In this document: positions 5,005 through 61,538 of the stretch, one piece after another
Layout of the letters: each line of letters begins with the position of its first letter
Numbering within the stretch: position 1 is the stretch's first letter
Assembly (NCBI RefSeq): GCF_015711015.1
Contig: NZ_CP064653.1
Span: forward strand, 1,302,001 to 1,366,000
Source: Methylomonas sp. LL1
GTDB taxonomy: Bacteria > Pseudomonadota > Gammaproteobacteria > Methylococcales > Methylomonadaceae
DNA length: 64,000 nt
Direction of reading: 5' to 3'
Notes under the pieces: model-generated
Seen by the model: the letters and a program-made list of their open reading frames with translations, nothing else
Database searches by the model: none
What the model was told of the DNA's origin: nothing
Position numbers and translations under genes: made by a program

Positions 5005-5014
5005 GGCCAATCGC

Positions 5015-27186: not shown

Positions 27187-27412
27187 TATAACACTCCGTG
27201 TGAAAAACCGTTTTGCACAACATGCTTTGAAAAGAGGCACAACAGAATGACGTGACTGCATACGAACGACGGCGGGAGGGGGATAGTTTGTCATTTGGTC
27301 ATCAAGTTTTCACGAACAGCAAAAACATAGATGCGAGGCTAAAGCTTCACCTCCAAAAGCACCTATGGTTAATTCCGTGTCATTCAAAATAATTCATTAT
27401 CAAAGGAAAAAA

Positions 27413-30681: not shown

Positions 30682-31938
30682 ATGACATTTTTAAACGAGC
30701 CCAAAAGAATCATCGTGTACTCACACGACACCTTCGGCCTCGGCAACATTCGACGGATGTTGGCAATTGCAAAATCCCTGGTGGATGCCAATCAGAATGT
30801 ATCCGTATTGATCCTCTCCGGTTCGCCGATGCTGCACGCCTTCCGCATCCCTGACCGTATCGATTACATCAAATTGCCTTGCTTATCTCGCGGTGTCAAA
30901 GGTGACTATTCGGTGAAGTTTCTGGATATGGAATACGAACAATTGGTCAAATTACGCAGCAACATCATTCTCAGCGCGGTGCTGGATTTCGATCCGGATT
31001 TGATTTTGGTCGACAAAAAACCTTATGGCGTCAGCGATGAATTGGGCGCTGCCCTTCATCTTATGCAACGGCGTAGTCACCGTGCCAAACTAGTCTTGCT
31101 TTTGCGCGACATTCTCGACAGTCCGGAAAGCACGATACCGGTGTGGAAAAAAAACGGATATCACGACGCCATCCAATGGCACTATGACAAGATACTGGTA
31201 GTCGGCTCACCGGAAATTTACGACTTGTGCAAGGAATACGAATTTCCGAAAGCCAGCCACGACAAGGTCCGCTTCTGCGGTTATATCGCTCGCGAACGTA
31301 GCGACAAACGTAGTGGCGAAATTCGTCAGCAAATCGGCTGCGCCAAGGAGCGTCTGGTGCTGGTCACCGCAGGCGGTGGTGAAGACGGCTATCAATTGCT
31401 GCACAGTTATCTGGAAGGTTTGAGTCGGCAGGATCTGGGCGACAACAGCATAACCCTGATGATTTGCGGCCCGGAAATGTCGGAAAGCCGCCGCCACCAA
31501 ATCGAAGTTTTGGCTCGCAGTTGCCGTAACGTGGTGGTTCAAGAGTTTAACACCGACATGATGGCCTGTATGGAAGCAGCGGATTTGGTGGTCAGCATGG
31601 GCGGTTACAACTCTACCTGCGAATTATTGACCTTGCGTAAGCGCGCGATATTGGTACCTCGCGTCAAACCTTCCCAAGAGCAATGGATACGTGCGGAACG
31701 TCTGGCGCTACAAGGCTTGGTTCGCGCAATCCATCCAAACAATCTGACGCCTAAATTATTGATGGACACGGTCCGTGAAGAGTTGGGCCGCACCAACGTC
31801 CATCACAGCCGCCTGTATCAAATCGACATGGGGGGGCTGCCACGTATCAGTGAATCGATCAGCGAATTGCTTTATGACTGCGACACAAAATTACCGGCAC
31901 CGATCAGAACTTCGAATCGTAGTGTCGCGGCCGATTAA
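30682..31938 (+). CDS. MurG-like (GT-B, GT28-type) glycosyltransferase 1
   Basis: A ~418-residue GT-B enzyme expected to add a sugar from a nucleotide donor to a lipid- or glycan-linked acceptor at the inner membrane face. The N-terminal glycine-rich loop is YSHDTFGLGNIRRML, and the C-terminal donor-site region reads MGGYNSTCELL, followed by an arginine-rich VPRVKPSQEQ segment, as in MurG-type proteins. The start is ATG 30682, with AAGGA nine bases upstream; a frame extension to 30655 is unlikely. It opens the 12-gene cluster and is one of three related enzymes in it. Sugar specificity is unknown. Confidence 0.88.
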   Translation: MTFLNEPKRIIVYSHDTFGLGNIRRMLAIAKSLVDANQNVSVLILSGSPMLHAFRIPDRIDYIKLPCLSRGVKGDYSVKFLDMEYEQLVKLRSNIILSAVLDFDPDLILVDKKPYGVSDELGAALHLMQRRSHRAKLVLLLRDILDSPESTIPVWKKNGYHDAIQWHYDKILVVGSPEIYDLCKEYEFPKASHDKVRFCGYIARERSDKRSGEIRQQIGCAKERLVLVTAGGGEDGYQLLHSYLEGLSRQDLGDNSITLMICGPEMSESRRHQIEVLARSCRNVVVQEFNTDMMACMEAADLVVSMGGYNSTCELLTLRKRAILVPRVKPSQEQWIRAERLALQGLVRAIHPNNLTPKLLMDTVREELGRTNVHHSRLYQIDMGGLPRISESISELLYDCDTKLPAPIRTSNRSVAAD

Positions 31939-32004
31939 CTTTTTCATCGTTTGAATAATCCTTCGGCCGGTGTGGGGCCGCCCGGACAATTTTTGGATTT
32001 TACA

Positions 32005-33360
32005 ATGCAAAATCATGACCACTCGGCGCAAGTCGCCTATATACTCAAAGGCTTTCCGCGCACCTCGGAAACCTTTATCAGTAACGAAATCCACTTGCTG
32101 GAAGTCCTGGGCCTGCAACTGTCGATTTTTTCGATCAAGCAGCTCGAGGGCCAAAAACATCACGCCGTTGTCGACGCCATCCGCGCGCCGGTGAGTTATT
32201 TACCGCAGGCCAGCGATCTGACCGGACACAGCTTTTTAGCCTGGCTCATCAATAACCTGCCGAAATTCACGCCAAGCCACGGCCGAGTGTTCCTTCAACG
32301 CCCGGCAGCCTACCTCGCCGCCTTGCTGGAATGTTTGGGCATGAGCCTTAAATATCGAAATGGCTGGCGGGAGTGGCCGCGCACGGTATTCATCAAGGAA
32401 TTTCTGCAAGCTGGTTATATCGCCGAATCGGTGTTGCAGAATCCGGCCATCAAGCATCTACACTCGCATTTCTGCCACGGCGCAACCACCGTTGCGATGT
32501 TCGTCAGCCGCATCAGCGGCCTGCCGTTCAGCTTTACCGCCCATGCCAAGGATATTTATTTGCGCGAACTGAATCCAGGCGACTTGCTGCAGATCAAAAT
32601 GCGCCGGGCAAAATTCGCCGTTACCTGCACCGGCGCCAATCAGGAACATTTGGATTCCTGCAAGGGTAGCGATATTGCCGTGCACCGGATTTATCACGGC
32701 CTGGATACCGATTTGTTTGTGCCGGCACCGCGCGAACAAAATGAGGCCGATCATATTTCGACCGTGCTGTCGGTCGGCCGATTGGTCGAGAAAAAAGGCT
32801 TTGATTATTTGGTCAGAGCCTGCGCAATTCTGCGCGATCGCGGCGTTCGATTTAACTGCCGCATCGTCGGCGGCGCGGATAAATACGCCCAAATCATCAA
32901 GCAACTGATCGCCGACTTGGATTTGCAAGACATCGTCAGCCTGCCCGGCGCGGTAACCCAGGAAGAACTGCGCGGCATTTATCAGCAAGGCGATGTATTT
33001 GCCTTACCCTGTCTGGTGGTCGATAACGGCGACCGCGACGGCATTCCCAATGTCTTGGTCGAAGCGATGGCGATGGAAATGCCGGTCATCTCGACCGACA
33101 TTTCCGGGATTCCGGAATTGATCCAGGATCATGTCAACGGCCTGCTGGTGCAGGAAAAGAATGCCGAAGCGATGGCCGATGCGATCGAAAGCTTGCTGAA
33201 AGATCAAGCCTTGCGCGAACGCTTGGGCCAAGCCGCGCGGCAAACCGTCTGCCGGGATTTCAATTCCCGCCACACAACCGTAGCCTTGAAAAAACTGTTC
33301 GACTCCTGCCTGGAAGGCCAAGCGGTGGAAGCTCATGTCTGCTGTGCTGAACACTCTTAA
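32005..33360 (+). CDS. Glycosyltransferase family 4 protein
   Basis: A ~451-residue GT4-type enzyme. LKGFPRTSETFISNEI is the typical N-terminal acceptor segment, SFTAHAKDIY precedes the linker, and the C-terminal half has SVGRLVEKKGFDYL, the PCLVVDNGDRDGIPNVLVEA nucleotide-sugar segment with its EX7E-type glutamates (DGIPNVLVEAMA) and STDISGIPEL. The start is taken as ATG 32005; TTG 31951 is less likely. It overlaps the first heparinase-like gene by 26 bases. It probably builds the repeat unit of the glycan together with the MurG-like enzymes. Confidence 0.92.
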   Translation: MQNHDHSAQVAYILKGFPRTSETFISNEIHLLEVLGLQLSIFSIKQLEGQKHHAVVDAIRAPVSYLPQASDLTGHSFLAWLINNLPKFTPSHGRVFLQRPAAYLAALLECLGMSLKYRNGWREWPRTVFIKEFLQAGYIAESVLQNPAIKHLHSHFCHGATTVAMFVSRISGLPFSFTAHAKDIYLRELNPGDLLQIKMRRAKFAVTCTGANQEHLDSCKGSDIAVHRIYHGLDTDLFVPAPREQNEADHISTVLSVGRLVEKKGFDYLVRACAILRDRGVRFNCRIVGGADKYAQIIKQLIADLDLQDIVSLPGAVTQEELRGIYQQGDVFALPCLVVDNGDRDGIPNVLVEAMAMEMPVISTDISGIPELIQDHVNGLLVQEKNAEAMADAIESLLKDQALRERLGQAARQTVCRDFNSRHTTVALKKLFDSCLEGQAVEAHVCCAEHS

Positions 33361-35344
33361 GTCCGATCCGCGTTTGCTGGCGCTGGCCGCGCCCTATTGC
33401 GACATGACGCCGGCGGTTCTGCTGGCGTATTTTCAAGGTCGTCGGCAGATTCGCTATTTTTCGGTGATCGACGAAGAGCAAAATACCCCGGAAAAACTGG
33501 ACGGTATTTTGCGCAACCGTTTCGAATTCAATCACCAGCCTTACCAGCTTGATGATGCATTCGATTGGCTGACTAATCCCAGTGCCGATGTCGAATGGCT
33601 GATTCTGCTGCACAAGTTTTATTACGCAGTCGGTTTGGGCAGACGATTCCAGCAAACCGGCGACACCCGCTACCGCGACAAATGGCAAGCGCTCACCCGC
33701 AGTTGGATCGACAACGTGCCGGTCGATTTTCTGTCTAGCGACGTCACTGGCCGCCGCGTACAAAACTGGATTTTTGCCTACCTCTATTTTGTCTCGGAGG
33801 CCGCCGAATTAGCCATCGATGCGGAATTTCATCTGGACTTTCTGGCCTCGCTGCAACAGCAGGTCGCCTATTTGTGCGACAACCTGACGCCAGCGCGCAA
33901 TCACCGTACCCTGGAGCTTTACGCGATTTTTCTGGCTGCGGTGGTATTTCCGGAATTGCGCGGTGCTGATGAATGGCTGAGTTTTTCGATTCGCGAATTG
34001 CAACGCAATCTGCAAACCGACTTTTTGGCCGACGGCGTGCATTGCGAACTTTCGACCGATTACCACCATATCGTGTTGCGCAATTTCCTGGGCATTCGCC
34101 GCTTGGCGATGATGAACAACATCGCGCTGCCAGCCGATATGGACGAGGCCATCAAAAAAGCCCTGAGCTTTTGCCTCCATGCGCATAAACCCGACGGCTT
34201 TATCCCGGCGATCAGCGACGGCGACAGCGCCAATTTCCTGGATTTGCTGCGGCAAGGCCACGAACTGTATCAAGATCAGGCGATGCTATATGTCGCCACG
34301 GCCGGTCAACAAGGCCAAGCCCCAGCGGAGCGTTCGAAAACTTTCGAGGCCAGCGGCTACAGCATCTTGCGCAGTGGTTGGGGTGATCAAGGCGATGCTT
34401 ATCAAGGCGAGCGCTACTTGTTTTTTGACTGCGCGCCCCTCGGTGCCGGCAATCATGGTCATCTGGACTTACTGAATATCGAGATGGCGGCTTACGGCCG
34501 GTCGTTGATTGTCGATCCAGGCCGCTATACCTACGATGAATCCGGCGACACCAACTGGCGGGTATTGTTTCGCGGCACCGGCTATCACAATACCGTGCAA
34601 ATCGACGGCAAGAACCAGACGCTGTATGCGCCGCATATTCGCAAATACAAGATCCTAGGACCGGAACCGACGCGTGAATTTAAATGCGCGCTACACCGGC
34701 CGGGTTTCGATTATCTGCACGGCATTGCCGCCAGCCATGAATACCCGGTGATTCACGAGCGCAAAATTCTGTTTGTCGCCTGCGAATATTGGCTGATCTG
34801 CGATTTGCTACGCGCCGAGCAAAACCACGATTACGAATTGCGCTTCCATCTGGATGCGTTGGCAGAGCAGTGCACCACAACGCACGTCAATTCAGCCGGA
34901 TTACGGGTCGACTCGCCGAATCTGGTTATCCTGCAAGCGCCGCAACCAAATACTAAATTGGCACTGGAGCCGGGCTTTGTTTCACCCAGCTACGGTTGCA
35001 AATACCCGGCGCCGGTCGTCAATTTTTCCGCGCATGCCGCCAATTATTGTTTTCTGACCGTGCTGTTTCCGTATCAATCGACCCCGCCGCGGCTTACGCT
35101 GGAACAATTGCCGGTAAGCCAAAATGGTCAAGCGGTCGGCAGCACTATCGCCAGTGCCGTGCGGATTCACAGCCAACAAGCCCAAGGCGAATACTACGAC
35201 GAGCTATTCCTGGCGAACCGCGCCGGTCTGACTTACAAATTTGCAGACCTGCAAACCGATAGCGCGTTTTTATTCCGTCGCCAGGATGGTCGGGGGCGAG
35301 TCTTGGCCTGGCATGCCGAGTCGGCGGCGGCACAGCGTGGATAA
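33335..35344 (+). CDS. Heparinase II/III family protein 1
   Basis: A 669-residue protein with an alpha-toroid N-terminal domain (~1-330) and a heparinase II/III C-terminal beta domain (~340-600). Key segments are ARNHRTLELYAIF and CELSTDYHHIV (the Asn/His and Tyr region of these lyases) and GAGNHGHLDLLNIEMAAYG followed by DPGRYTY in the beta domain. No signal peptide is visible, so it appears cytoplasmic, odd for a lyase acting on exported polymer. Family members often accompany exopolysaccharide operons, perhaps trimming or editing chains. Start overlaps the GT4 gene. Actual lyase activity is unproven. Confidence 0.88.
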   Translation: MSAVLNTLKSDPRLLALAAPYCDMTPAVLLAYFQGRRQIRYFSVIDEEQNTPEKLDGILRNRFEFNHQPYQLDDAFDWLTNPSADVEWLILLHKFYYAVGLGRRFQQTGDTRYRDKWQALTRSWIDNVPVDFLSSDVTGRRVQNWIFAYLYFVSEAAELAIDAEFHLDFLASLQQQVAYLCDNLTPARNHRTLELYAIFLAAVVFPELRGADEWLSFSIRELQRNLQTDFLADGVHCELSTDYHHIVLRNFLGIRRLAMMNNIALPADMDEAIKKALSFCLHAHKPDGFIPAISDGDSANFLDLLRQGHELYQDQAMLYVATAGQQGQAPAERSKTFEASGYSILRSGWGDQGDAYQGERYLFFDCAPLGAGNHGHLDLLNIEMAAYGRSLIVDPGRYTYDESGDTNWRVLFRGTGYHNTVQIDGKNQTLYAPHIRKYKILGPEPTREFKCALHRPGFDYLHGIAASHEYPVIHERKILFVACEYWLICDLLRAEQNHDYELRFHLDALAEQCTTTHVNSAGLRVDSPNLVILQAPQPNTKLALEPGFVSPSYGCKYPAPVVNFSAHAANYCFLTVLFPYQSTPPRLTLEQLPVSQNGQAVGSTIASAVRIHSQQAQGEYYDELFLANRAGLTYKFADLQTDSAFLFRRQDGRGRVLAWHAESAAAQRG

Positions 35345-35347
35345 GTC

Positions 35348-37483
35348 ATGAAACCTAGCTATCCCAGCACCGCTACACCGGCGTTTCTCGGCACGCAAAA
35401 CCCGTTGGCAAGTTCAATGCCCGTATTCCTGGAGCCGCGCTTCGCGGCAATGACGCCCGCCGAGCTGTTGACGCATTTTCGCCTGCGTGCCGTTACCAAC
35501 TATTTCCCGCTAAAGCCTGGCAAAGCCAAACATGTTGCTAGCGCGCAGCCGATTCTGAACAACGAATTTACCCTAAATAACGAAACCCATCGCTTGGGTG
35601 ACGAGTTTAATTGGCTGCATAACCCCAGTCCTGATCTGGAATGGCTGATAATGCTGCACAAGTTTTATTATTCCCGCGATCTGGCATTAGCTTACGATTA
35701 CAGCGGCGACGAGGGTTATGCCGATAAATGGGTGGCCTTGGTCGGTTCGTGGATTGAGCAGGTGCCTGACGGTTTCGTGAACAGCCAAGTCACCGGCCGC
35801 CGCTTGCAGCAATGGTTATTGGCTTACCATTACTTCGTACCGGGTCGGCATTGTTTTAAGATAACCGCCGATTTTTTGCTGACGTTGTTGAGCTCCATCC
35901 AGTCGCAAGCCCTGTTCCTCAGCAACAATTTAACGCCGGAAGGCAATCACCGCACTATCGAATTATCCGCAATTTTCACGGTGGCGGTTTTGTTTCCCGA
36001 GCTCAGTGCCTCGGCCAGCTTGCTGGCGTTTGCCCAACGCGAATTGCTGGACAATTTACGCCATGATTTTCTGGCCGACGGTGTGCAAAATGAGCTGTCC
36101 ACCGACTATCACCACACCGTCTTGAAAAACTTCCTGCGGGTCCGCGAGTTGGCGGATTTGAACGGACTGGCGCTGCCCGAGGCGTTCGATACCGTCATTC
36201 GCAAGGCACTGGAATTTTCAATTTACGCCCACAAGCCCGACGGCTGGCTGCCGGCTATCAACGATGGCGACATCAACAGTTATCTGTCCTTGCTACGCAA
36301 AGCCCAACGCTACTATCCCGGCGACGCGCTGAGTTATGTAGTCAGCCAAGGCGCACAGGGCAAGCCATCGACGCAACGCTCACGGTTATTTGCCGACAGC
36401 GGCTACTGCATTCTGCGTAGCGACTGGGCGGAGCGGCCTTATGCCGATGGCCGCTATCTGTTTTTCGATTGCAGCGACTTGGGCTTTGGCAGTCACGGCC
36501 ATTACGACCTCTTGAGTTTCGAAATGGCCGCCTATGGTCGTTCGCTGATCGTCGATCCAGGCCGTTACACCTATCACGAACATGACAGCGACGGCGTCAA
36601 CTGGCGGCATGCCTTCAAAGGCACGGCCGCGCACAACACCATCATGGTCGACGGTAAGGATCAGATGGCCTACCGATGCCATGAGCCGGTCGGCCCACAA
36701 CCACGGGCAGCGGTATTAAGCTTTGAATCGAACCAAGGCTTTGACTTCGTGCATGGCTGTGCCCTGAGTCCGCAATACGAGGTGCAGCATCAGCGCAGCA
36801 TTTTCTTTGCCGAAGCCGAATATTGGATTATCAGCGATCTGTTGCTTGCCTCCGACGCGCATCGTTACGAGCAGTTTTTCCATTTGGCACCGGAAGCACA
36901 AGGCCAAATCGAATGGCTGGAAGCCGAACAAGGCCACGGCATTCAGGCGCCCGATCTGTTGATCGCGCAAGCGAGGCGTGCCGAGGTTGCGACGAGTTTG
37001 GAGCCAGGTTGGGTGTCGCCGGAGTACGGCGTCAAGCACCCCGCGCCTGTATTAAGCTTTAGCCAGCAATGCAAGGGTAGCGGCTGGTTTCAAACCGTTC
37101 TGTATCCCTATAAAAACATTGCTCCGGCTTTGCATGTGGAGGGGATTTCAGTAACCAGTCTTGGCCAATCGGTGCCCGCTACCCAGGCTTTAGCGCTAAG
37201 TATCCTCATTCAATCAGAAACTACAACTTATCACGATTGCTTTTTCGTCGCCCATCAGCCCGGTTTAACGGAATACCACTTTGCCGATGTCATCTGCCAG
37301 GCACAAGTCTTGTTCATCCGCCGGGATGCCGAAGGCGGCATCCTCAGCGTTCGGGCTTATGCTGCGGAATGGCTGGAAATTGGCGGACGCAAACTGCTGG
37401 ACAGCATTGGCAAACCGGTTTGCCTGAATTACGCCCAGGGCCAGCTACAAATCGACGCTATCGACGGAAGTGTGCCGGCATGA
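35348..37483 (+). CDS. Heparinase II/III family protein 2
   Basis: A 711-residue paralogue of the preceding gene, product of a tandem duplication followed by strong divergence. The same segments occur: GNHRTIELSAIF, NELSTDYHHTV, GFGSHGHYDLLSFEMAAYG and DPGRYTYHE. The N terminus carries an extra ~25 residues and again has no signal peptide. It begins 3 bases after the first copy and overlaps the next kinase gene by ATGA. Having two different copies suggests either two linkages or a heteromeric enzyme. Uronate-containing glycan is a reasonable but untested inference. Confidence 0.88.
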   Translation: MKPSYPSTATPAFLGTQNPLASSMPVFLEPRFAAMTPAELLTHFRLRAVTNYFPLKPGKAKHVASAQPILNNEFTLNNETHRLGDEFNWLHNPSPDLEWLIMLHKFYYSRDLALAYDYSGDEGYADKWVALVGSWIEQVPDGFVNSQVTGRRLQQWLLAYHYFVPGRHCFKITADFLLTLLSSIQSQALFLSNNLTPEGNHRTIELSAIFTVAVLFPELSASASLLAFAQRELLDNLRHDFLADGVQNELSTDYHHTVLKNFLRVRELADLNGLALPEAFDTVIRKALEFSIYAHKPDGWLPAINDGDINSYLSLLRKAQRYYPGDALSYVVSQGAQGKPSTQRSRLFADSGYCILRSDWAERPYADGRYLFFDCSDLGFGSHGHYDLLSFEMAAYGRSLIVDPGRYTYHEHDSDGVNWRHAFKGTAAHNTIMVDGKDQMAYRCHEPVGPQPRAAVLSFESNQGFDFVHGCALSPQYEVQHQRSIFFAEAEYWIISDLLLASDAHRYEQFFHLAPEAQGQIEWLEAEQGHGIQAPDLLIAQARRAEVATSLEPGWVSPEYGVKHPAPVLSFSQQCKGSGWFQTVLYPYKNIAPALHVEGISVTSLGQSVPATQALALSILIQSETTTYHDCFFVAHQPGLTEYHFADVICQAQVLFIRRDAEGGILSVRAYAAEWLEIGGRKLLDSIGKPVCLNYAQGQLQIDAIDGSVPA

Positions 37484-38814
37484 ACCGCGACCCACGCTTC
37501 CCGCAAATGGCCGACGCGCTGAATCCGGCCGTGATGGGGCCGTTGCTGGGCTGGGTGCTGGGCATGCCTGGCATTAAAACTGGTCATGTTGAATGTTGCA
37601 TCAGCGAAAAACGTCATAAACCCGGTAAAAGTCTGGTGATTGGTTATCGGCTTAAAGCCCAATCGAACAAAGTTCTCCAATCGCGCTACGTGACCGGCCG
37701 TCTATGCCCGCCTGGCGCGGCCAGCCGGGAATGTGAATTGGCACGTAGCAAACGGCCCGATCTGGCGGCGGGCGCATTGATGTTTTTGCACGAGCCGGCT
37801 ATGCTGATTTGGGCGTTTCCTTACGATCGCAAGCTAATTAATTTGCCGGCCCTGTTGGATGCGGAATCCGTCAAAAGCCGGATTGGCGCGCCGGATTTAA
37901 CCGGGGATGATAGGGTCCTGGCTGTCGAATCCGAAGTGCTGCATTATCTGCCGGAGCAATCCTGCATGATCCGCTATCGGGTGTCGTTGGCTGGGTCCGA
38001 TCAGACTCGATTGTTGTATGCCAAAAATTACGCCGACGATAGCGGCCGCGACGTGTTCAAAGTGATGCGGCAACTGAGCAGCCAATTTAGCTGGGGCGCC
38101 AAGGCCCTGGCCTACGACGCTCAAACCCGCACGCTGTGGCAATCGCATGTCCCCGGCAGGACATTGTGCTGGGCCGATTTGCAAACAGCCAAGGGCTTGG
38201 CCTTGGCCGAACGCATCGGCCACTGCGCGGCGGCGTTTCATGCCTGCAAAATCGATACCGTACAACGTTTCAGTCAAAGCGATGTCACCGAAGGCCTGCT
38301 GGCCACCGTTAGACTCGCCGAACAAACCCGGCCGGAACTGGCGGAACCCATCGAAAGTAGGGTTGCAGGGTTGTTGGCGGACGAGCTTAATCTTCCAAAG
38401 CCAGCCCTGGCGACACTACACCACGACCTAAAGCTGAACAATTTTTTAGTCGACGGCGACAAGTTGGGCTTGATCGACCTGGATTGCGTCTGCCTGGGCG
38501 ACCCGCTGGCCGATTTGGCCAGTCTGATCGCCAACTTTTATCTGCACGGCTTGCGGGAAGGCGATTCAGTCGAGCAAGTGCATCCGCTGGTCAAGCAGTT
38601 AGTCGGCTCTTACATGGCCCATAGCGTCCATGCCGTTTCATTGCCTGCCTTGCATTGGCAGGTGGCCGCCGCGCTGATTCACGAAGTCACTCGCCGCAGC
38701 CTGCGGCAAATGGATGACTTGCGTATCGCGCATATCCAAAGTTATCTGACGCTCAGCGAAAGCTACCTGGCGCTCAGTAGACAGCCAACCGGAGCCGGCG
38801 ATGCGCTCATTTGA
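37480..38814 (+). CDS. APH/choline-kinase-fold phosphotransferase 1
   Basis: A ~444-residue kinase-like protein of the aminoglycoside-phosphotransferase fold. The catalytic loop LHHDLKLNNFLV keeps the HxDxxxxN pattern, and IDLDCVCLGDPLADLASL supplies the metal-binding aspartate. In this setting its substrate is likely a sugar or small alcohol used in glycan synthesis, not an antibiotic. The ATG at 37480 overlaps the preceding stop (ATGA), which rules out a longer frame reaching back to 37237. It overlaps the following histidine phosphatase by 14 bases; this kinase-phosphatase-kinase arrangement is unusual. Confidence 0.85.
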   Translation: MNRDPRFPQMADALNPAVMGPLLGWVLGMPGIKTGHVECCISEKRHKPGKSLVIGYRLKAQSNKVLQSRYVTGRLCPPGAASRECELARSKRPDLAAGALMFLHEPAMLIWAFPYDRKLINLPALLDAESVKSRIGAPDLTGDDRVLAVESEVLHYLPEQSCMIRYRVSLAGSDQTRLLYAKNYADDSGRDVFKVMRQLSSQFSWGAKALAYDAQTRTLWQSHVPGRTLCWADLQTAKGLALAERIGHCAAAFHACKIDTVQRFSQSDVTEGLLATVRLAEQTRPELAEPIESRVAGLLADELNLPKPALATLHHDLKLNNFLVDGDKLGLIDLDCVCLGDPLADLASLIANFYLHGLREGDSVEQVHPLVKQLVGSYMAHSVHAVSLPALHWQVAAALIHEVTRRSLRQMDDLRIAHIQSYLTLSESYLALSRQPTGAGDALI

Positions 38815-39445: not shown

Positions 39446-40737
39446 GCAATCCACTGGCTCAATTTGCGCCCTTACTCGATGCCGAGCGGATGGCTGCAAC
39501 CCTGCAACGGCATTTGCCCGAATGTCTGGCCGGCGACTGGCAGGTAACGGGCTGCGAGATTCAACATCCGCGCTACAAAACCTATCGCCTTGCCGAAAAC
39601 CGCGAGCGCTCTTTTTTATCGCTGGTTTACCACTTGCAAGGCCGGCAATCGCCCTCATCTGCCGCCGAACAACGCATACTCTACGCCCGCGCCTATTTAG
39701 ACGGGCGCAGCCATCAGGCCTTTGTTGAAGCCCAAGCCAGCGGTGAAAAAGCGATTCATCTGGCCGAACTGGGCATGGTTGGCTGGCGCTTTCCGAACGA
39801 TCCGGCTATGCCCTGGCTGGCGGAACTCATGGATAGTGAGCAGGCTGCGACTTTGGTTCCGGCTATAGGCCGGCAGAAATTGTCGGCGATTGAGATCGTC
39901 AATTATCGGCCGGAGATTCGTTGTACAGCGCGCTACCGGTTCGCTCGAAGCGGCGTTGTATCTGCGCGCGTGGTTTACGGTAAAACCTACGCCGATGAAC
40001 GCGGTCTGGCTGTTTACGAGCACCTGCGCGCGCTGCAAATACAGTCTCAAACATACGCTGCTTTTATCATGCCGCGTGCCTTGGGTTACGACGCCGAACG
40101 CCACACATTGTGGTTGGAAGGCTTGCAGGGTCAAGCACTAGCGGAGCTGGACTTCGCTGTCGGTGTTTCACAGAAAATTCCGGCGTTGGCCAATGCACTT
40201 GCTGCTTTCCATCACCTAATACCACCGGTTCTCCCGGTCGTGACCTTGCAGCAACAATTGCAGGAGTGGCGCAAGAAAGCCGATAAGTTGAGCCACGCCT
40301 ATCCCGCCATCCAGCCGGCATTGGCAGCGTTGCTAATCCAATTGCAACAAAATCGCCCAGAGTTTGAAACACTCGGCTTGATCCACGGCGATTTTCACAT
40401 CGATCAACTGCTGGTTTTGCCAGACGGCAGTTTAGCTCTCGTCGATTATGACGAATTGGCGCTGGGCGATCCGTTGCAGGATTTAGCTAACTTCGCGGCG
40501 GATTTATACAACTACGCCTATGCCATTGCCGCCGTAGATCAACTCGTTCGGCAACTGTTCAAGGCCTACTCGGCTGCCAGCCACGGTCAAACCGATCCGC
40601 AACGTTTTGCCTGGCATCTGCGCGGACAATTGTTGACTCGCGCTTACCGAACCTTCATCCAGCAAAAATCGGCCGCGCCGCAACGTGTTGCCAAACTTAT
40701 CGACTTGGCACTGCGGCCTTGGCCGCTGGCCGGCTGA
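39442..40737 (+). CDS. APH-fold phosphotransferase 2 (altered catalytic loop)
   Basis: A ~431-residue paralogue-like protein of the previous kinase. The catalytic loop is IHGDFHIDQLLV: histidine and aspartate are kept, but the asparagine expected five residues after the aspartate is glutamine. The metal-binding LVDYDELALGDPLQDLANF is intact. The change could lower activity or signal a different substrate. The ATG at 39442 overlaps the phosphatase stop by four bases, which fixes the start. It lies just ahead of the ABC exporter gene. Confidence 0.82.
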   Translation: MSNPLAQFAPLLDAERMAATLQRHLPECLAGDWQVTGCEIQHPRYKTYRLAENRERSFLSLVYHLQGRQSPSSAAEQRILYARAYLDGRSHQAFVEAQASGEKAIHLAELGMVGWRFPNDPAMPWLAELMDSEQAATLVPAIGRQKLSAIEIVNYRPEIRCTARYRFARSGVVSARVVYGKTYADERGLAVYEHLRALQIQSQTYAAFIMPRALGYDAERHTLWLEGLQGQALAELDFAVGVSQKIPALANALAAFHHLIPPVLPVVTLQQQLQEWRKKADKLSHAYPAIQPALAALLIQLQQNRPEFETLGLIHGDFHIDQLLVLPDGSLALVDYDELALGDPLQDLANFAADLYNYAYAIAAVDQLVRQLFKAYSAASHGQTDPQRFAWHLRGQLLTRAYRTFIQQKSAAPQRVAKLIDLALRPWPLAG

Positions 40738-40757
40738 ATTCATCAGGAAAACCGTTT

Positions 40758-42560
40758 ATGACCAACCAAACTCAACCAACAAACCGCTTCAAGCAGATCG
40801 TGTTCGCGCATCTGCGTCGGGTGCGCGGCAGTATTTTTGCGGCCGTCGTCTGTATTCTCGGTTCCACGCTGACCAGCCTGATCGTGCCTTGGCCGCTGAA
40901 GCTGATCTTCGATCATGTGCTATTGAATCATCCGTTGCCGGCTCAGCTGGCAGCGGCGCAACCGCTGCTGTATGGCGGTAGCGAACAAGCCTTGTGGATA
41001 CTCTGCGGCAGCATGGTGGTGATTGCCTTGTTCAAAGGTATTTTTTCTTATTACCAACTGTTCCTGACTTCGCGCATCGGTTATTTGCTGGTTTATACCT
41101 TGCGCAGCGAGCTGTTCGACCATCTGCAACGCCTGTCGCTGGCGTTTCACAGCAGCACGCCGTCCGGCGAGTTATTGAACAAACTCACCAGCGATACCAA
41201 CACCTTGAAGGACGTTTACGCCGACTCGGCCTTGACCTTTACCACCCACGTGCTAACCGTACTGGGTATGTTCGCAATCATGTTCAGCCTGAGCGTGAAA
41301 CTGAGTTTGATCGTGCTGGCCAGCTTTCCGCTGCTGTGTCTGGCCATCGTGATGATTTACAGCCGGGTCAAACGCTCGGCGCGCAAACAACGCCATAACG
41401 AAGGGCGTTTGGCATCGCGAGTCAGTGAGTTATTGAACGCTGTGCCGCTGGTGCAAACCTACGGCATGGAAGATTACGAACGCGAGCGCTTCGATGCCGA
41501 AAGCAGCCAATCGATGACCGAAAGCGTGCGTACCGCCCGCATCGAGGCCGGGGCGACGCGGATGATCGAAATCATCAGCGCGATCGGCACCGGCATCGTG
41601 GTGCTGTTCGGCTGCCTGCAAGTGTTTGCCGGGGTACTGACGCCGGGCGACGTGCTGGTATTTAGTTCGTATATAGCCCAGATGTATCAACCGATTCGGC
41701 AAATCACCCGCTTGTCCACCCGTTTTTCCAAGGCCAGCGTCAGTATCGAACGCATCAGCGAAATTCTCGATACCGAGCCGGATATTCAAGATCCGCCCGA
41801 TGCGGTGCTGCCGAAAGGCTTGCGCGGCGAAATCAAATTCAGCCACGTGTCCTTCGGTTATCCGACCGGCAAACCTATCCTGCGCGATATTTCCTTTCAC
41901 ATTCAACCGGGTGAACGGGTGGCTTTGGTCGGTGCTTCCGGGGCCGGTAAATCGAGCATCGCCCGCTTGCTGATCCGCCTTTACGATCCGCAACAGGGCG
42001 AGGTACGCATCGACGGTATCGAGGTTGGCCGTTATCAACGCGCCGGCTTGCGCCGGGAAATCGGTGTGGTGTTGCAGGATTCGATTCTGTTCGGCACCAG
42101 CATTCGTGAAAACATTGGCTATGGTAGCCCGGACGCCACGATTGAGGATATTCAAGCTGCCGCTCTGTTGGTGCATGCCGACGAATTTATCCGCAATTTG
42201 CCGGACGGCTACGACACGGTCTTGGGCGAAAGTGGCGGCAATCTGTCCGGCGGTCAAAAACAACGCCTGTGTCTGGCGCGGGCCTTGTTGCGCAAATCCT
42301 CGATTCTGATTCTGGACGAACCGACCTCGGCGGTGGATGCCCAGTCCCAGGCCCTGATCCGCGACGCCATCGACAATCTGCACGGCGGCAAAACCGTGTT
42401 GGTGATCGCCCATCAATTTCACACTATCCGCAATTTCGACCGGATTTTAGTATTGAAGCAAGGCGTGATTGTCGAGCAAGGCAGTCACGAGGCCTTGATG
42501 CGGATGGGCGGCCATTATCACGAACTGTATAAACTCCAACACGGGTTGCGTGCCGCATGA
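40758..42560 (+). CDS. MsbA-like ABC exporter (fused permease and ATPase)
   Basis: A 600-residue half-transporter that would work as a homodimer in the inner membrane. An ABC_membrane domain with about six helices (~20-310) is followed by the ATPase (~340-590): Walker A GASGAGKSS, signature LSGGQKQR, Walker B ILILDEPTSA and H-loop IAHQ. The ATG at 40758 follows an AGGA site. Exporters of this type move lipid-linked glycans, glycolipids or cyclic glucans. No other transporter, flippase or polymerase is in the cluster, so this is probably its inner-membrane exit route. The next gene overlaps by four bases. Confidence 0.95.
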   Translation: MTNQTQPTNRFKQIVFAHLRRVRGSIFAAVVCILGSTLTSLIVPWPLKLIFDHVLLNHPLPAQLAAAQPLLYGGSEQALWILCGSMVVIALFKGIFSYYQLFLTSRIGYLLVYTLRSELFDHLQRLSLAFHSSTPSGELLNKLTSDTNTLKDVYADSALTFTTHVLTVLGMFAIMFSLSVKLSLIVLASFPLLCLAIVMIYSRVKRSARKQRHNEGRLASRVSELLNAVPLVQTYGMEDYERERFDAESSQSMTESVRTARIEAGATRMIEIISAIGTGIVVLFGCLQVFAGVLTPGDVLVFSSYIAQMYQPIRQITRLSTRFSKASVSIERISEILDTEPDIQDPPDAVLPKGLRGEIKFSHVSFGYPTGKPILRDISFHIQPGERVALVGASGAGKSSIARLLIRLYDPQQGEVRIDGIEVGRYQRAGLRREIGVVLQDSILFGTSIRENIGYGSPDATIEDIQAAALLVHADEFIRNLPDGYDTVLGESGGNLSGGQKQRLCLARALLRKSSILILDEPTSAVDAQSQALIRDAIDNLHGGKTVLVIAHQFHTIRNFDRILVLKQGVIVEQGSHEALMRMGGHYHELYKLQHGLRAA

Positions 42561-43771
42561 ACCCATACAAACCAAGAATCCTCTTATATTGCCAGCACTC
42601 GCTGGGCATGGGGCACTGGGTCAGAGCGATGACCTTGGCCAATGCCTTGAGCCGGGAATTTCGGGTGATTTTTCTAAACGGCGGCCGCGCCCCCGATCAT
42701 CAGTCTGCCATTACCGATCTGGATATGCTGAATCTGCCGCCGCTGGGTATGGGCGAAGATCATCAGCTGTATAGCCAGGATGAGCGTTACAGCGTCAAGG
42801 AAGCATTGGCGATGCGCCGGCAACTGATACTCGATAGCTATGCGTTGTTCAGGCCGGAAGTGGTGTTGATCGAACTGTTTCCGTTCGGCCGCAAGAAATT
42901 GGCTGGCGAGTTGCTGCCGTTATTAAAAACCGCGCGCCGCGATACACAAGGCCGGCCGTTGGTGCTATGCAGCCTGCGCGACATTATGGTCAACGCCCGC
43001 AAGGATCAAAGCCGGCATGACGAACGCGCCCGTTGGATAACGGATCGCTATTTCGACGGATTGTTGGTACACGCCGATCCCAGGTTTGCCAGATTGGAAG
43101 ATAGTTTTCAGCCGCGTCATCCGTTGAAAACGCCCTTGCTTTACACGGGTTTTGTCGGTCCGCGTCGCACAACGGCAGCGATAAAACCGCCCTGGCGCGG
43201 TGTGTTGGTATCGGCTGGCGGCGGCATGGTCGGCGCGCTGTTGTTTCAAGCGGCAGTTCAGGCCCATGCCATCAATTGGGCCGTTGAAAATATACCGATG
43301 ACCATCGTCGCCGGGCCGTTTTTACCGGAAACAGATTGGCAGGATTTAGTTGCGCAAGCCAAAGATATGGAAGGTCTCACGCTGCTGCGTTCGGTGCCGG
43401 CGATACAGCCTCTGTTGGCGGCGCACAACCTGTCGGTCAGCCAATGCGGCTACAACACGGTGATGGATATCCTTGAATCTCGTACCCCGGCCCTGGTCGT
43501 GCCGTTCGTGCGTGGCCAAGAAGACGAGCAAAGCCAGCGGGCGCAAAAATTAGCGCAATTGGGTTTGGTGAAAGTATTGAATTCGGCGGAACTGACGGGC
43601 CAGCGTTTGGCCGAGCAGATTTTGCAATTAAGGGATTTTTCGCCCAATCCGGCCGGCCTGGATTTGGCCGGCGCGGACCATACCGTGCGTCTGATTCAGG
43701 AATTACTGACAAGCAGCAGACGGGACGCGAACGCAGAATCGCTATCAACGGAGTATGCCCATGCCTGCTGA
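42557..43771 (+). CDS. MurG-like (GT-B, GT28-type) glycosyltransferase 2
   Basis: A 404-residue enzyme related to those at the two ends of the cluster. The N-terminal loop reads YCQHSLGMGHWVRAMTLA and the donor-site region CGYNTVMDILE with VPFVRGQEDEQSQRA. VELFPFG-like (VLIELFPFGRKK) is shared with the third copy at 46.1 kb. The start overlaps the ABC exporter stop (ATGA), indicating tight coupling of synthesis and export. Donor and acceptor unknown. Confidence 0.88.
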   Translation: MNPYKPRILLYCQHSLGMGHWVRAMTLANALSREFRVIFLNGGRAPDHQSAITDLDMLNLPPLGMGEDHQLYSQDERYSVKEALAMRRQLILDSYALFRPEVVLIELFPFGRKKLAGELLPLLKTARRDTQGRPLVLCSLRDIMVNARKDQSRHDERARWITDRYFDGLLVHADPRFARLEDSFQPRHPLKTPLLYTGFVGPRRTTAAIKPPWRGVLVSAGGGMVGALLFQAAVQAHAINWAVENIPMTIVAGPFLPETDWQDLVAQAKDMEGLTLLRSVPAIQPLLAAHNLSVSQCGYNTVMDILESRTPALVVPFVRGQEDEQSQRAQKLAQLGLVKVLNSAELTGQRLAEQILQLRDFSPNPAGLDLAGADHTVRLIQELLTSSRRDANAESLSTEYAHAC

Positions 43772-44600
43772 TTGGCTGACTCCGGTCCGTGCGGCATTAG
43801 ATGCCAAAGAGCGGCCGATCGACATATTTTTTCGCGACGACGACGCCGGCTGGGATGATGGCCGTCTGTTCGAGCTACTGGATTGCTTTCAAGCCTGCGA
43901 GGTGCCGATCGATCTGGCCGTGATTCCTCAGGCTACCACCGAAAAGCTTGTCAAAGCGCTGCTGGCGCGCTGGCAAACAAAACCGACGATGCTGGGTTTG
44001 CACCAACACGGCTATAGCCATGATAACCATGAAGCTCAAGGCCGCAAATGCGAATTCGGTGAGAGCCGTAGCGAAGAGCGGCAATACCGCGACTTGCAAA
44101 TTGGCAAGCTACATCTGGAGCAATTGCTAGGGCCGGCGCTGGGCCGGATTTTCACGCCGCCCTGGAACCGTTGTAGCCAGGCCACGGCCGACAGCTTGGT
44201 TAAACTGGGTTTTCAAGCGCTGTCGCGCAACCGGGGAGCGGCCCCGCTCCATACCGGAACATTGCGGGAAATTCCGGTGGCTATCGACTGGTGCGGGATC
44301 AGAGTCAAATCCGCTCAACCCTGGCTTGCGCTTGGCCAAGCCATAGCGGATGTGTTGCATCCGGAGCATCCGGAACCACTGGGCATTATGCTGCACCACG
44401 CAGTGATGGACGCAGACGACCTTGAGCATCTGCAAGCCTTATTGCAACTATTCCGCGAACATCCCAATGCACATTGCCGCTTGATGCGCGAATTTTTAGA
44501 CGTCAGACAGGCTGCTGATGCACCGGGGTGTTCGTTTCAGCTTGAGTCCCAGGCTGTTCCGACAGCTATGCGGCCATGCCTCAATTTACCACACCACTGA
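43761..44600 (+). CDS. Polysaccharide deacetylase-like protein
   Basis: A ~279-residue protein of the NodB/polysaccharide deacetylase superfamily in a divergent branch. FFRDDDAGWDD gives the aspartate pair and LHQHGYSHDN the HxxGYSH metal-ligand pattern; FTPPWNRCS resembles the RxPY/W motif, and HHAVMD near the end supplies the late histidine. There is no signal peptide, suggesting action in the cytoplasm, perhaps on an N-acetylated sugar intermediate. ATG 43761 has GGAG seven bases upstream; ATG 43755 is an alternative. It overlaps the MurG-like gene by 11 bases. Confidence 0.83.
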   Translation: MPADWLTPVRAALDAKERPIDIFFRDDDAGWDDGRLFELLDCFQACEVPIDLAVIPQATTEKLVKALLARWQTKPTMLGLHQHGYSHDNHEAQGRKCEFGESRSEERQYRDLQIGKLHLEQLLGPALGRIFTPPWNRCSQATADSLVKLGFQALSRNRGAAPLHTGTLREIPVAIDWCGIRVKSAQPWLALGQAIADVLHPEHPEPLGIMLHHAVMDADDLEHLQALLQLFREHPNAHCRLMREFLDVRQAADAPGCSFQLESQAVPTAMRPCLNLPHH

Positions 44601-44614
44601 TTTGCCCTTCGTTC

Positions 44615-46135
44615 ATGAGCTTTAATTCCTTCATACTAAAAACCGGAAAAACGGTATTACTGGCCGGCGGTACCTTGCTGAGTTTATCGGTACTTGCAGA
44701 GACCACTAACGGGCAGGTGGCCGCGAACAAACCCAATGACAATGCCTTTCGCCAGGACAACGGCGACGGAGTCAGAAAAGAACCTTTGCGTATCAACCCA
44801 GGCGACAAACGGCCGGCCGACCAGTTTAAGGTCGATGTATTCGGCCACCCGTTGACCATCGGCGGTGCCTATGAGTTGGAACCGCGTTACGTGGAAGACA
44901 GACGGCTAGACCCGCGCCGCGACGACGACGTGGCTAATGTCTATCAAGATCTGAAACTGGAGTTGTTTTACCAGTGGTCAAAATCCTTGTCGTTTTTTGT
45001 GCAGTCCGATGTTTACTACGATCCGGAGGTCTACACCGAAAGCGGTCTGGATCAATACGAAGCCGGAATTAAACTGACCCAGGCCTGGCTGTTCATTCAT
45101 CAGATACTGGATTCGGGTTTTAGTCTGCAATTGGGCCGGCAACGCATTGCCGACAAACGTCAATGGTGGTGGAACGACGAACTGGACGCGGCAAGGGTGT
45201 ATTTTGGCGAAGACACGCTGTTTGCCGAGTTGGCGATTGCCAACGAATTGGGTTCCAAACAATCGGATCAGGATTTCATCGATCCGGTCAGCGACCGGGT
45301 GGTGCGGCTGATGGGCGACGTGGTTTGGCAATGGGCTCCGAAGCAAAATTTGTCCTTGTTCTTTCTGAGCCAGTTCGACAATTCGGATAACCAAAACCCC
45401 GGCGACTTGATCCAAGCCAATCGTAAAGACGCCAGCGACGGCGACCTGAATTGGTTCGGCGGACGGACGATGGGCAAGTTCAAAATCGAACATGTCGGCA
45501 AGATCGGCTATTGGCTGGATTCGGCGTTTGTATTCGGTGAAGAGACCACCCAAACCTTCACCGACATAAACAGCAATGTCTCCCGAGTTGGCGCGCAAAC
45601 CCCACGGCACGTCGCAGCCTGGGGCATGGACGCCGGCATCACTTGGTACAGCAATCTGTTCCTGGAACCTTACCTGACCTTGGGTTATGCCTACGGTTCC
45701 GGCGACGCCAATCCCGACGACGGCACCGACAGCAGTTATCGGCAATCGGGGATCCATAACAACAAAATCAAATTATCCGGCAGCCAGCGCTTTCGTTACT
45801 ACGGCGAATTGTTTCGGCCGGAATTGTCGAATTTAAACATCATGACCGCCGCCTTGGGCTTTCCGATCTCCGAGCAAAGTTCCATCGACTTGCTCTACCA
45901 CCACTACGAACAGGCCACGCCGTCGTCGGTGATTCGCGATTCGCGGATTCGCGCCACGCCCAACGGCAGAAGCGGCACGCTGGGCGACGAGTTCGACTTG
46001 GTATTGTCCCTGGACGAATGGAAACATTTGCAGGTGCAATTTGCCGGCTCGCTATTCATGGCCGGCCCGGCTTTCGGACAATTGGAAGGCAATAACTCCT
46101 TCCAGTTGGATCTGACCTTTAAATACAGCTTTTAA
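44615..46135 (+). CDS. AlgE-like alginate-export-family outer-membrane porin
   Basis: A ~506-residue outer-membrane barrel with a signal peptide (KTVLLAGGTLLSLSVLAETT) and C-terminal LTFKYSF. Barrel segments such as ELEPRYVEDRRLDPRRDDD, SLQLGRQRIADKRQWWW and DLVLSLDEWKHLQVQ match the alginate export family. In Pseudomonas, AlgE passes an acidic polymer through the outer membrane. The start is given as ATG 44615 to fit the signal peptide; an ATG at 44576 would overlap the previous gene. It is the predicted outer-membrane exit for the product of this cluster. No alginate polymerase (alg8/alg44) is present. Confidence 0.9.
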   Translation: MSFNSFILKTGKTVLLAGGTLLSLSVLAETTNGQVAANKPNDNAFRQDNGDGVRKEPLRINPGDKRPADQFKVDVFGHPLTIGGAYELEPRYVEDRRLDPRRDDDVANVYQDLKLELFYQWSKSLSFFVQSDVYYDPEVYTESGLDQYEAGIKLTQAWLFIHQILDSGFSLQLGRQRIADKRQWWWNDELDAARVYFGEDTLFAELAIANELGSKQSDQDFIDPVSDRVVRLMGDVVWQWAPKQNLSLFFLSQFDNSDNQNPGDLIQANRKDASDGDLNWFGGRTMGKFKIEHVGKIGYWLDSAFVFGEETTQTFTDINSNVSRVGAQTPRHVAAWGMDAGITWYSNLFLEPYLTLGYAYGSGDANPDDGTDSSYRQSGIHNNKIKLSGSQRFRYYGELFRPELSNLNIMTAALGFPISEQSSIDLLYHHYEQATPSSVIRDSRIRATPNGRSGTLGDEFDLVLSLDEWKHLQVQFAGSLFMAGPAFGQLEGNNSFQLDLTFKYSF

Positions 46136-46147
46136 GGGTTGGTTAGC

Positions 46148-47287
46148 ATGCATTCGAAACGCCGGAAAATCCTGTTTTATTGCCAAAGCCTGGTCGGTTT
46201 GGGGCATTTGACCAGCAGTCTGTTGGTGATTCGCGAGTTGTCGACTTACGCCGATGTCGATTTGATTCACGGTGGACAAGGCTTGCAACAAATGCCGGAA
46301 CTGCCCGGATTTAGGCATCTGCGTTTGCCAACTATCTTAATCGACAGTGCAACCGATGAGCTTTATGCGCCGGATAGCGATGATCCTATCGAAAACGTCT
46401 GGGCCGAGCGCGCCGCCGCTATCGAGCGCTTTTTAGATTGGCCCTACGACGCGGTGATTGTCGAGTTTTTCCCGTTCGGTCGGCGGCGCCTGAAAAAAGA
46501 GATTCTTGGGCTGTTTGCCACCGTTAGACAGCGTTGCGCGGCGGTACCGATTTTTTGTTTTGTCCGGGAAATTTTGGTGCCGGCGCCGCTGGACGCCGAA
46601 CAGCGCATGGTGAAACTGGTGCGGGAACACATCCATACCGTATTCGTGCGCGGCGACCCAAATATTGTTCACTTTGAGGAAACGTTTGCATTGACAGCCG
46701 ATATTTCCGATCGTCTGGTGTATGTGGGTTATGTCAGCCCTCCATTGCCAGGACAGTGGCCGATTCGCCAAAACAAAATTGTGGTCAGCCAAGGTGGCGG
46801 CGAAATCGGTATGAATTTGTTACGCTCAGCTATTCAAACCGCTCCGTTATTAGCCGAATACCAGTTTTTAGTGGTGACAAGTTCCAGAGCATCGACAACT
46901 GAAATAACTGAGTTGCAAGCGTTGATACGCAGCGAAAACGTCAAGGTGGTTTCCTTTTTGAGCAATTTTCAAGAAGAGTTACTGACCGCTGCGTTGTCCA
47001 TCAGTCTAGGCGGTGACAACACTTTGATGGACGTGATCTGCACCCGCACGCCTGCGCTAGCGTTTCCGTATGGCGGCAACAGTGAGCAAGGCCTGCGGAT
47101 TCAGAAGTTATCGGGTAAAGGATTTATAAGCGTCTTAAGTCAAACGGATCTGACTCCAGCACTTTTATGCACCAAAATCAGAGTGGCTATAAACCAACCC
47201 TACCCTGATGAAATTATCGCCATGAATGGCGCAGTAGAAATGAGCAATAGGATTGCTCTGATTATCGACGAGCTTGTAACGGTTTAA
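46148..47287 (+). CDS. MurG-like (GT-B, GT28-type) glycosyltransferase 3
   Basis: A 379-residue enzyme closing the cluster. The N-terminal YCQSLVGLGHLTSSLLVIREL and VIVEFFPFGRRRL match the second copy. The C-terminal donor region reads SLGGDNTLMDVICTRTPALAFP, with aspartate in place of the tyrosine seen in the other two copies (GGYN, CGYN). That change at the donor site may mean a different nucleotide-sugar. The start is ATG 46148, 12 bases after the porin stop. The GC content falls slightly towards its 3' end. Confidence 0.86.
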   Translation: MHSKRRKILFYCQSLVGLGHLTSSLLVIRELSTYADVDLIHGGQGLQQMPELPGFRHLRLPTILIDSATDELYAPDSDDPIENVWAERAAAIERFLDWPYDAVIVEFFPFGRRRLKKEILGLFATVRQRCAAVPIFCFVREILVPAPLDAEQRMVKLVREHIHTVFVRGDPNIVHFEETFALTADISDRLVYVGYVSPPLPGQWPIRQNKIVVSQGGGEIGMNLLRSAIQTAPLLAEYQFLVVTSSRASTTEITELQALIRSENVKVVSFLSNFQEELLTAALSISLGGDNTLMDVICTRTPALAFPYGGNSEQGLRIQKLSGKGFISVLSQTDLTPALLCTKIRVAINQPYPDEIIAMNGAVEMSNRIALIIDELVTV

Positions 47288-61535: not shown

Positions 61536-61538
61536 GCG

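Follow-up and report, generated by a model that had tools for sequence, protein, structure and literature searches.

A conserved twelve-gene cluster of Methylomonas sp. LL1 that may build an acidic glycan and export it through an ABCB-type transporter and an AlgE-family barrel

The stretch of Methylomonas sp. LL1 DNA analysed here (the window, 64,000 nucleotides of contig NZ_CP064653.1) comes from a genome of 4.92 Mb assembled as two contigs, and contains a cluster of 12 genes, all on the forward strand, at 30655/30682-47287. The cluster is a conserved system found in several phyla, and its families occur together more often than chance would give. On balance we favour the view that it makes an acidic oligo- or polysaccharide containing uronic acid, which would be completed in the cytoplasm, exported by an ATP-binding cassette (ABC) transporter and released through an AlgE-like barrel. 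We propose more tentatively, as a possibility to be taken seriously, that the cluster represents a distinct and widespread route, composed of soluble cytoplasmic enzymes, an ABCB-class exporter and, in diderms, an AlgE-type barrel, with no flippase, membrane polymerase, synthase, polysaccharide co-polymerase (PCP) or outer-membrane polysaccharide export (OPX) protein.

The gene calls were confirmed from the coordinates of the open reading frames (ORFs; Table 1). At 10 of the 11 gene junctions the genes overlap by 4-26 bp or are separated by 3-20 bp, and the gap between GTa and GT4 measures 12 bp with one choice of start codon and 66 bp with the other. Such short overlaps and gaps are as expected for a single operon. 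The start of APH1 was placed at the ATG that overlaps the HepB stop. The Pfam families are GT28-like (three genes), GT4 (one), Hepar_II_III_N plus Hepar_II_III_C (two), APH (two), His_Phos_1 (one), ABC_membrane plus ABC_tran (one), DUF2334 (one, below cut-off) and Alginate_exp (one). A previous interpretation by a model, made from the letters and their ORFs (the sequence-only reading), had described a tight cluster of twelve such genes, and the same-strand ORFs and Pfam families confirm it.

In order to assess conservation, a collection of genomes was scanned with a GTb profile, giving 251 relatives. The best 80 loci, found through two short motifs and selected by GTb alone, were compared, a choice that makes the sample lean to near relatives. 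Families were called at each locus by profile search (at least 60 bits), and each ORF was assigned to its best-scoring profile only; GTb is counted in 75 rather than 80 loci because some seeds (for example those of L108, L117 and L120) score best with GTc. The counts for each family are given in Table 1. Hep, APH and ABC occur together in 52 of the 80 loci, and in 40 of the 49 that span 18 kb or more. A single-sequence search at 50 bits found GTb, Hep, APH and ABC together in 48 of the 80 (37 of the 49 longer ones). A similar gene set and order is found in Methylomonas, Methyloglobulus, Rubrivivax, Ramlibacter, Aromatoleum and Nitrospira, so the recurrence in relatives that the sequence-only reading had proposed to look for does occur. 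When 398 genomes were drawn evenly from the phylum, with the window genome among them, 32 had a GTb-type match with E <= 1e-40. Many of the loci come from metagenome bins and their names may be wrong, for instance L061 (Bordetella parapertussis) and the Nocardioidaceae L068 and L074; L100 and L101 bear one strain number under two names.

Table 1. The twelve genes of the cluster, in window coordinates, with their family assignment and the number of the 80 related loci in which each family was called (AF2, AlphaFold 2 model)
Gene	Position	Strand	Assignment	Evidence	Loci
GTa	30655..31938 (alternative ATG 30682)	+	Putative glycosyltransferase, GT28/MurG-like	PF04101, 48.9 bits	39
GT4	31951..33360	+	GT4 glycosyltransferase	PF00534, 134 bits	65
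HepA	33335..35344	+	Heparinase III (PL12)-like, putative lyase or epimerase	PF16889+PF07940; best PDB match heparinase III, E 2.6e-28	57 (Hep)
HepB	35348..37483	+	Second heparinase III-like protein	PF16889+PF07940	57 (Hep)
APH1	37480..38814	+	APH-family kinase with extra N-terminal region	PF01636, 61.5 bits	64 (APH)
HPase	38801..39445	+	Histidine phosphatase, branch 1	PF00300, 150.8 bits	20
APH2	39442..40737	+	APH-family kinase, N-lobe apparently duplicated	PF01636, 57 bits; AF2 pLDDT 93	64 (APH)
ABC	40758..42560	+	Half-size exporter, MsbA/ABCB class	PF00664+PF00005; NCBIfam	67
GTb	42557..43771	+	GT28-family GT-B-fold protein, probable glycosyltransferase	PF04101, 51.1 bits; AF2 pLDDT 87	75
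PDA	43755..44600	+	DUF2334/polysaccharide-deacetylase-like	PF10096, 25.5 bits (cut-off 26)	56
AlgE	44576..46135 (start 44576 or ATG 44615)	+	AlgE-family outer-membrane beta-barrel, signal-peptide-like N-terminus	PF13372, 120 bits	45
GTc	46139..47287	+	Third GT28-like putative glycosyltransferase	PF04101, 35.8 bits	16

Within the genus, a GTb homologue of at least 70% identity is present in 9 of 36 other genomes; the nearest named relatives of the window genome are Methylomonas, its GTb having 92% identity over 380 columns to that of M. methanica R-45363. Laboratory strains with the cluster include Methylomonas sp. LW13 (L045) and M. methanica. Among the nine genomes, two clusters were fetched whole (G031 and G036) and contain all twelve genes in identical order. 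Three genomes of the same taxonomic order (G038, G045 and G052) have partial sets, which lie on short contigs or are divided between two places, and their exporter is more distant. A 20 kb stretch of a further genome of the genus (L032, from G012) has, at 10632-13191, no more of the set than GTc and an AlgE-like gene split into two neighbouring pieces, and is apparently a decaying remnant of the cluster. On two plasmids of Ca. Manganitrophus (Nitrospirota) the order is GTa, GT4, HepA, APH1, HPase, APH2, GTb, GT4, ABC, AlgE, and several genes are in broken frames. In one copy (L023) this order is interrupted by radical-SAM genes and a further, weak GT4 match, and in another (L025) GTb is joined to a PDA-like half. 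The GTb ORF has about 660-740 amino acids (aa) in Nitrospirota, Chloroflexi and Syntrophobacter.

The export of bacterial polysaccharides is commonly assigned to one of three routes, Wzx/Wzy, ABC-2 or synthase, and locus searches use the corresponding markers. Neither the cluster nor the other scanned ORFs of the window (of the 46 of at least 200 aa, all but eleven that overlap larger genes, and a minority of the shorter ones) include Wzx, Wzy, a processive synthase, Wza or Wzc; Wzx/Wzy or synthase genes of the same operon just outside the window were among what the sequence-only reading had named as evidence against itself. Relatives agree with this picture. Membrane segments, like the export signals discussed below, were called by Kyte-Doolittle proxies. 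In 53 spans holding both Hep and ABC, with ORFs that overlap a member by more than half dropped, a single non-member ORF has at least 4 predicted segments, and it lies on the opposite strand; when the spans are extended by 3 kb at both ends and at least 6 segments are required, three ORFs pass, all on the opposite strand. The four glycosyltransferase-like proteins of the window have 0, 0, 1 and 0 predicted segments, so none is multi-pass. Because the stricter proxy detects 4 segments in the window exporter, whose class has 6, Wzx and Wzy with 10-12 segments should be visible, and a small initiating transferase might escape. When the export routes are defined as in the sections of PMC9601211 used here (PCP and OPX proteins; a periplasmic tetratricopeptide repeat (TPR) protein with a barrel of 16-18 strands), the cluster does not show the features tested for any of the Wzx/Wzy, ABC transporter and synthase routes. 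The statement that all three standard routes are incomplete here is supported, and the relatives, with much the same parts, have no recurrent multi-pass protein besides the exporter.

The absent parts may instead be encoded elsewhere. A glycan could be assembled on a lipid, undecaprenyl or some other, which the ABC exporter would flip as the ABCB-class PglK flips lipid-linked glycans, and then be polymerised or transferred by enzymes from other loci. The GT28-type proteins are distantly MurG-like and MurG takes a lipid acceptor, and three Wza loci indicate other polysaccharide machinery in the genome. We consider this explanation unlikely, as no membrane initiating transferase, polymerase or ligase recurs in the relatives, with the reservation that the proxy could miss small initiators of few segments; the lipid-linked product suggested by the sequence-only reading is a guess.

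The exporter, of the MsbA/ABCB class, had been called MsbA-like, a label to be used with caution. It scores 448 bits against the MsbA family TIGR02203, under the cut-off of 602, and a separate gene at 3.18 Mb of the window genome scores 749.5. The genome thus has its own MsbA above the curated cut-off, and identity of the cluster exporter with the housekeeping MsbA was rejected. Its NCBIfam matches include the ABCB-class glycan exporters NdvA/ChvA, PglK and cyanobacterial HepA, all under the curated cut-offs. In a quick tree, with long branches among the outside rows and with four of the five stretches fetched for other exporters usable, the cluster exporters form a clade of 45 rows (SH-aLRT 99) that spans Pseudomonadota, Nitrospirota, Chloroflexota, Thermodesulfobacteriota and Acidobacteriota, and excludes the MsbA of the window genome and three other ABCB exporters.

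The nature of the product is suggested by neighbouring nucleotide-sugar genes in the relatives. Of 52 eligible loci, 12 have a gene of the UDP-glucose-dehydrogenase type as the next gene downstream on the same strand, and some nucleotide-sugar dehydrogenase lies within 10 kb on either strand in 19 of the 52. Among the downstream genes, that of L049 alone was run against NCBIfam, where it is a nucleotide-sugar dehydrogenase above cut-off with TuaD (UDP-glucose 6-dehydrogenase) as best match; the others were counted at 300 bits or more to the L076 ORF, itself one of the 12. Second dehydrogenases of L076 and L067 are nearest to TviB (467 and 585 bits, cut-off 592), and L096 has a galU above cut-off near the cluster. 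Epimerase genes near the clusters match an extended epimerase/dehydratase group without reaching any cut-off, and are read here as UDP-glucuronate 4-epimerase-like. With the dehydrogenase directly downstream in relatives, the product probably contains uronic acid, for which the sequence-only reading had proposed to look.

Regarding the glycosyltransferases, the label of GTa, GTb and GTc is a putative one drawn from their Pfam family. In a Foldseek search with the AF2 model of GTb, enzymes of the GT1 type rank first, and MurG and UDP-sugar 2-epimerase are also matched. Among NCBIfam models GTb scores best with the hydrolase PseG, at 37.8 bits, far under the cut-off.

By its sequence the porin of the cluster is a homologue of Pseudomonas AlgE. 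Three PDB sequences match it, all of them AlgE (E 2e-25, residues 180-478), which together with the Pfam match bears out the earlier description as AlgE-like. AlgE was not found at the loci of Nocardioides and Solirubrobacter, both Actinobacterial isolates; this fits monoderm cells, but those clusters also have no Hep or strong APH match. Elsewhere in the window genome, pairs of AlgE-family and ABC ATPase matches with identical scores and mirrored spacing are found at about 1607266-1612374 and 4783553-4788661 (G000:C2), which suggests an inverted duplication of some 5 kb. The barrel also bears on the idea that the cluster makes a membrane glycolipid, in which GT28-like proteins would glycosylate a lipid, APH kinases phosphorylate it and the exporter flip it to the outer leaflet. 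The MsbA class of the exporter and the presence of MurG among the fold matches of GTb would agree with such a product, and one of the plasmid copies has a CDP-alcohol phosphatidyltransferase gene nearby, though on the opposite strand. However, AlgE is an alginate channel and its family is present in 45 of the 80 loci, and the linkage to heparinase and UDP-glucose dehydrogenase indicates a chain containing uronate, so that a glycolipid is improbable.

The heparinase domain Hepar_II_III_C occurs just twice in the window genome, both times inside the cluster, and is present in 2 of 14 control genomes. The closest solved structures of HepA are heparinase III. In an alignment of 70 Hep rows, from which those of L026-L029, L034 and L046 are excluded, five residues are invariant among the non-gap rows: N189 (66/66), H190 (66/66), Y243 (67/67), H374 (68/68) and H418 (69/69). 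Three of them in HepA, N189, Y243 and H374, correspond in the alignment with heparinase III to its Asn240, Tyr294 and His424, the catalytic residues in the table of PMC12088678 used here, given an offset of 24 between the PDB chain and the published numbering that is our own count; the PL12 catalytic residues are thus present. Against the NCBIfam model HepC (heparin-sulfate lyase, cut-offs 700/600), HepA reaches 142/107 bits and HepB 150/111. Both a lyase and an epimerase reaction would be compatible with these data. In PDA, the blocks DDD, HxHxxxH and PPWNR are kept in at least 85% of 61 rows, and no PDB relative with E below 1 was found. The export-signal proxy (Kyte-Doolittle 2.0) is positive in 1 of 67 Hep and 2 of 64 PDA proteins, compared with 10 of 12 AlgE proteins, a control that uses a longer stretch than Hep and PDA and has 12 usable rows only. 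Retaining their key residues and having no export-signal-like N-terminus, Hep and PDA probably act in the cytoplasm.

As heparinase III has a degradative function and AlgE is a passive channel, the locus could be thought catabolic, the heparinases degrading imported uronate glycans and AlgE serving as uptake porin. This is the least credible of the explanations considered, since the cluster has several glycosyltransferase-family genes and an export-type ABC protein with no binding protein, the heparinases have no export-signal-like N-terminus, and the relatives have the linked UDP-glucose dehydrogenase. Catabolism of heparin or alginate was likewise disfavoured, as export-signal-like N-termini are lacking and the cluster does not encode an ABC system for uptake.

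The HxD and DxD residues of the APH1 and APH2 families are kept in at least 85% of rows, and RHG and His155 of HPase in at least 85% of 19 aligned rows. The AF2 model of APH2 is an APH kinase plus an additional N-terminal domain. Residues 20-132 resemble the N-lobe at 133-242 (hhalign 96.7%, E 3.4e-10, 83 columns), and the C-terminal part gave no match in this profile comparison; the APH kinases of this cluster thus appear to have a duplicated N-lobe. Distant profile matches of the kinases are weak, to glucosamine kinase (E 5e-6) and maltokinase (E 1e-4), with other APH-fold kinases ranking ahead, and the Foldseek alignment of APH2 to maltokinase has a root-mean-square deviation of about 14-15 Å. 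A further ORF family lies inside or beside the cluster in 9 of the 80 loci (L096 9779-11326, L111 2301-3962 and seven more). The two members scanned have a C-terminal APH domain; the N-terminal part, with no Pfam hit, has a GxFxPPHxxH motif that we take to be nucleotidyltransferase-like. This family hints that some kinase product may become a nucleotide-activated building block. The phosphorylated product suggested by the sequence-only reading is a guess. The top fold matches of the APH2 model are antibiotic kinases, and GTb matches antibiotic glycosyltransferases, as would be seen if the cluster made an oligosaccharide secondary metabolite from which the kinases protect the producer, the phosphatase reversing the modification and the ABC pump exporting the compound. 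Such a function is very improbable, given that HPase has no export-signal-like N-terminus, that the cluster is widely spread over phyla and that it is linked to AlgE and the dehydrogenase.

Taken as the synthesis and export of an acidic glycan, the cluster could work as follows. The soluble proteins GTa, GT4, GTb and GTc, whose families are observed, would build a chain in the cytoplasm, where PDA would strip acyl groups and the Hep proteins would epimerise uronic residues at C5 or cleave the chain to length. APH1, APH2 and HPase might add phosphate to, or take it from, the glycan, its primer or some precursor, and this step is a weak one. The dedicated ABCB-type exporter would then carry the finished product over the inner membrane; within this class, NdvA exports cyclic glucan and PglK moves lipid-linked glycan. 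In diderms the AlgE-family barrel, judging from homology and linkage, would pass the polyanion through the outer membrane.

Several observations weigh against this proposal. No polymerising enzyme was identified in the cluster. GT-B folds include proteins that are not transferases, and GTb matches UDP-sugar 2-epimerase and PseG. Three Wza-type genes (PF02563) are found elsewhere in the genome, the nearest at about 370 kb, and as Wzx, Wzy and Wzc were not searched genome-wide another export path is possible. The window cluster itself has no sugar-nucleotide genes, two dehydrogenase genes lying elsewhere in the genome, and 40 of the 52 eligible loci have no dehydrogenase directly downstream. Eight loci carry a different type of exporter, and the 45-row clade does not include the exporters of Actinobacteria and cyanobacteria either, so the exporter slot is kept and the protein differs. 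An exporter of 38% identity is present on an Acidisarcina plasmid without the cluster; this match was rejected as a relative of the cluster because it lies outside any such cluster. PF13372 is a broad family, with five matches in the window genome, and AlgE is absent, by profile search, from the diderm relatives L066, L072, L102, L107 and L119; it is therefore common rather than universal. The Nocardioides locus L087 has no Hep, the APH matches of Solirubrobacter are weak only, and six cyanobacterial loci (L108, L110, L112, L113, L114 and L117) have no Hep, APH or AlgE. These cyanobacterial relatives keep a smaller set, with glycosyltransferase genes and, in five of the six, the exporter.

Upstream of the cluster is an opposite-strand gene with an MCP domain, and further up a PEP-CTERM (VPLPA-CTERM) protein (27365-28264) with a weak CorA-like copper-binding match below cut-off. 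A transposase with rve and HTH_21 domains (25988-26836), presumably IS3-like, lies about 4 kb upstream of the cluster. Downstream there are response-regulator and PAS-kinase genes on the opposite strand. Five GGDEF/EAL proteins flank the cluster (2467-5010, 7884-13220, 13202-15691, 21396-23390 and 51472-53697), as do several PAS histidine kinases; surroundings so rich in cyclic diguanylate (c-di-GMP) functions would suit control of a matrix. Other genes of the window include a histidine kinase with an ethylene-receptor-like (ETR1_N) sensor domain (17896-20214) and, on the other strand about 12 kb off, an efflux pair of a major facilitator superfamily transporter beside an HlyD-type adaptor (59949-62555).

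A conserved cluster without the standard markers would be missed by searches based on them. The capacity of methanotrophs, of Nitrospira and of the manganese oxidiser Ca. Manganitrophus to form an acidic matrix could consequently be underestimated. The list of parts makes the question open to ordinary gene deletion.

No published description of the cluster was found by word matching in open-access PubMed Central. In the sections of PMC9601211 used here, the EpsX/EpsY translocon of Myxococcus belongs to a Wzx/Wzy pathway and couples its barrel to a short OPX protein; it shares with our cluster an AlgE-like barrel outside a synthase system, and differs in that no OPX gene is present here. The Pseudomonas acidic polysaccharide (Pap) was rejected as a match: the portion of PMC7716237 used here describes the pap locus as 16 genes with a UDP-glucose/GDP-mannose dehydrogenase and predicted deacetylases, and does not include the present gene set. 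Sheath or stalk formation was also rejected, since the literature on these structures matched by word search does not list the word "heparinase". The synthase-dependent alginate system of Pseudomonas (Alg8/44/K/X/E/L) resembles the cluster in its AlgE-family barrel, its enzyme of the heparinase/alginate-lyase type and its uronic-acid product, as proposed here. In contrast, the cluster has no Alg8-type synthase or TPR protein, an ABC exporter would perform the inner-membrane step, and the lyase-like protein has no signal-peptide-like N-terminus; secreted heparinases differ from the Hep proteins in the same respect. The export of capsule and O-antigen by KpsMT and Wzm/Wzt would have in common with our proposal a glycan finished in the cytoplasm and an ABC transporter. 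That route uses an ABC-2 type transporter with PCP and OPX proteins, whereas the cluster exporter is of the ABCB class (PF00664), without an ABC-2 family match, and an AlgE-type barrel takes the place of PCP and OPX genes. The exporter class is shared with NdvA/ChvA (cyclic beta-glucan), PglK and cyanobacterial HepA, and we know of no such system in which it is combined with AlgE, heparinase and APH kinases. Finally, the modification of heparan and dermatan sulfate also involves deacetylation and action on chain uronates, and dermatan epimerase has a heparinase-like fold. The cluster differs in being bacterial, in having no sulfotransferase in its window copy and in that its epimerase activity is putative; if the proposal is correct, its heparinase-fold proteins, acting on a chain inside the cell, would parallel in bacteria the modification of glycosaminoglycans, and they might serve as a source of enzymes.

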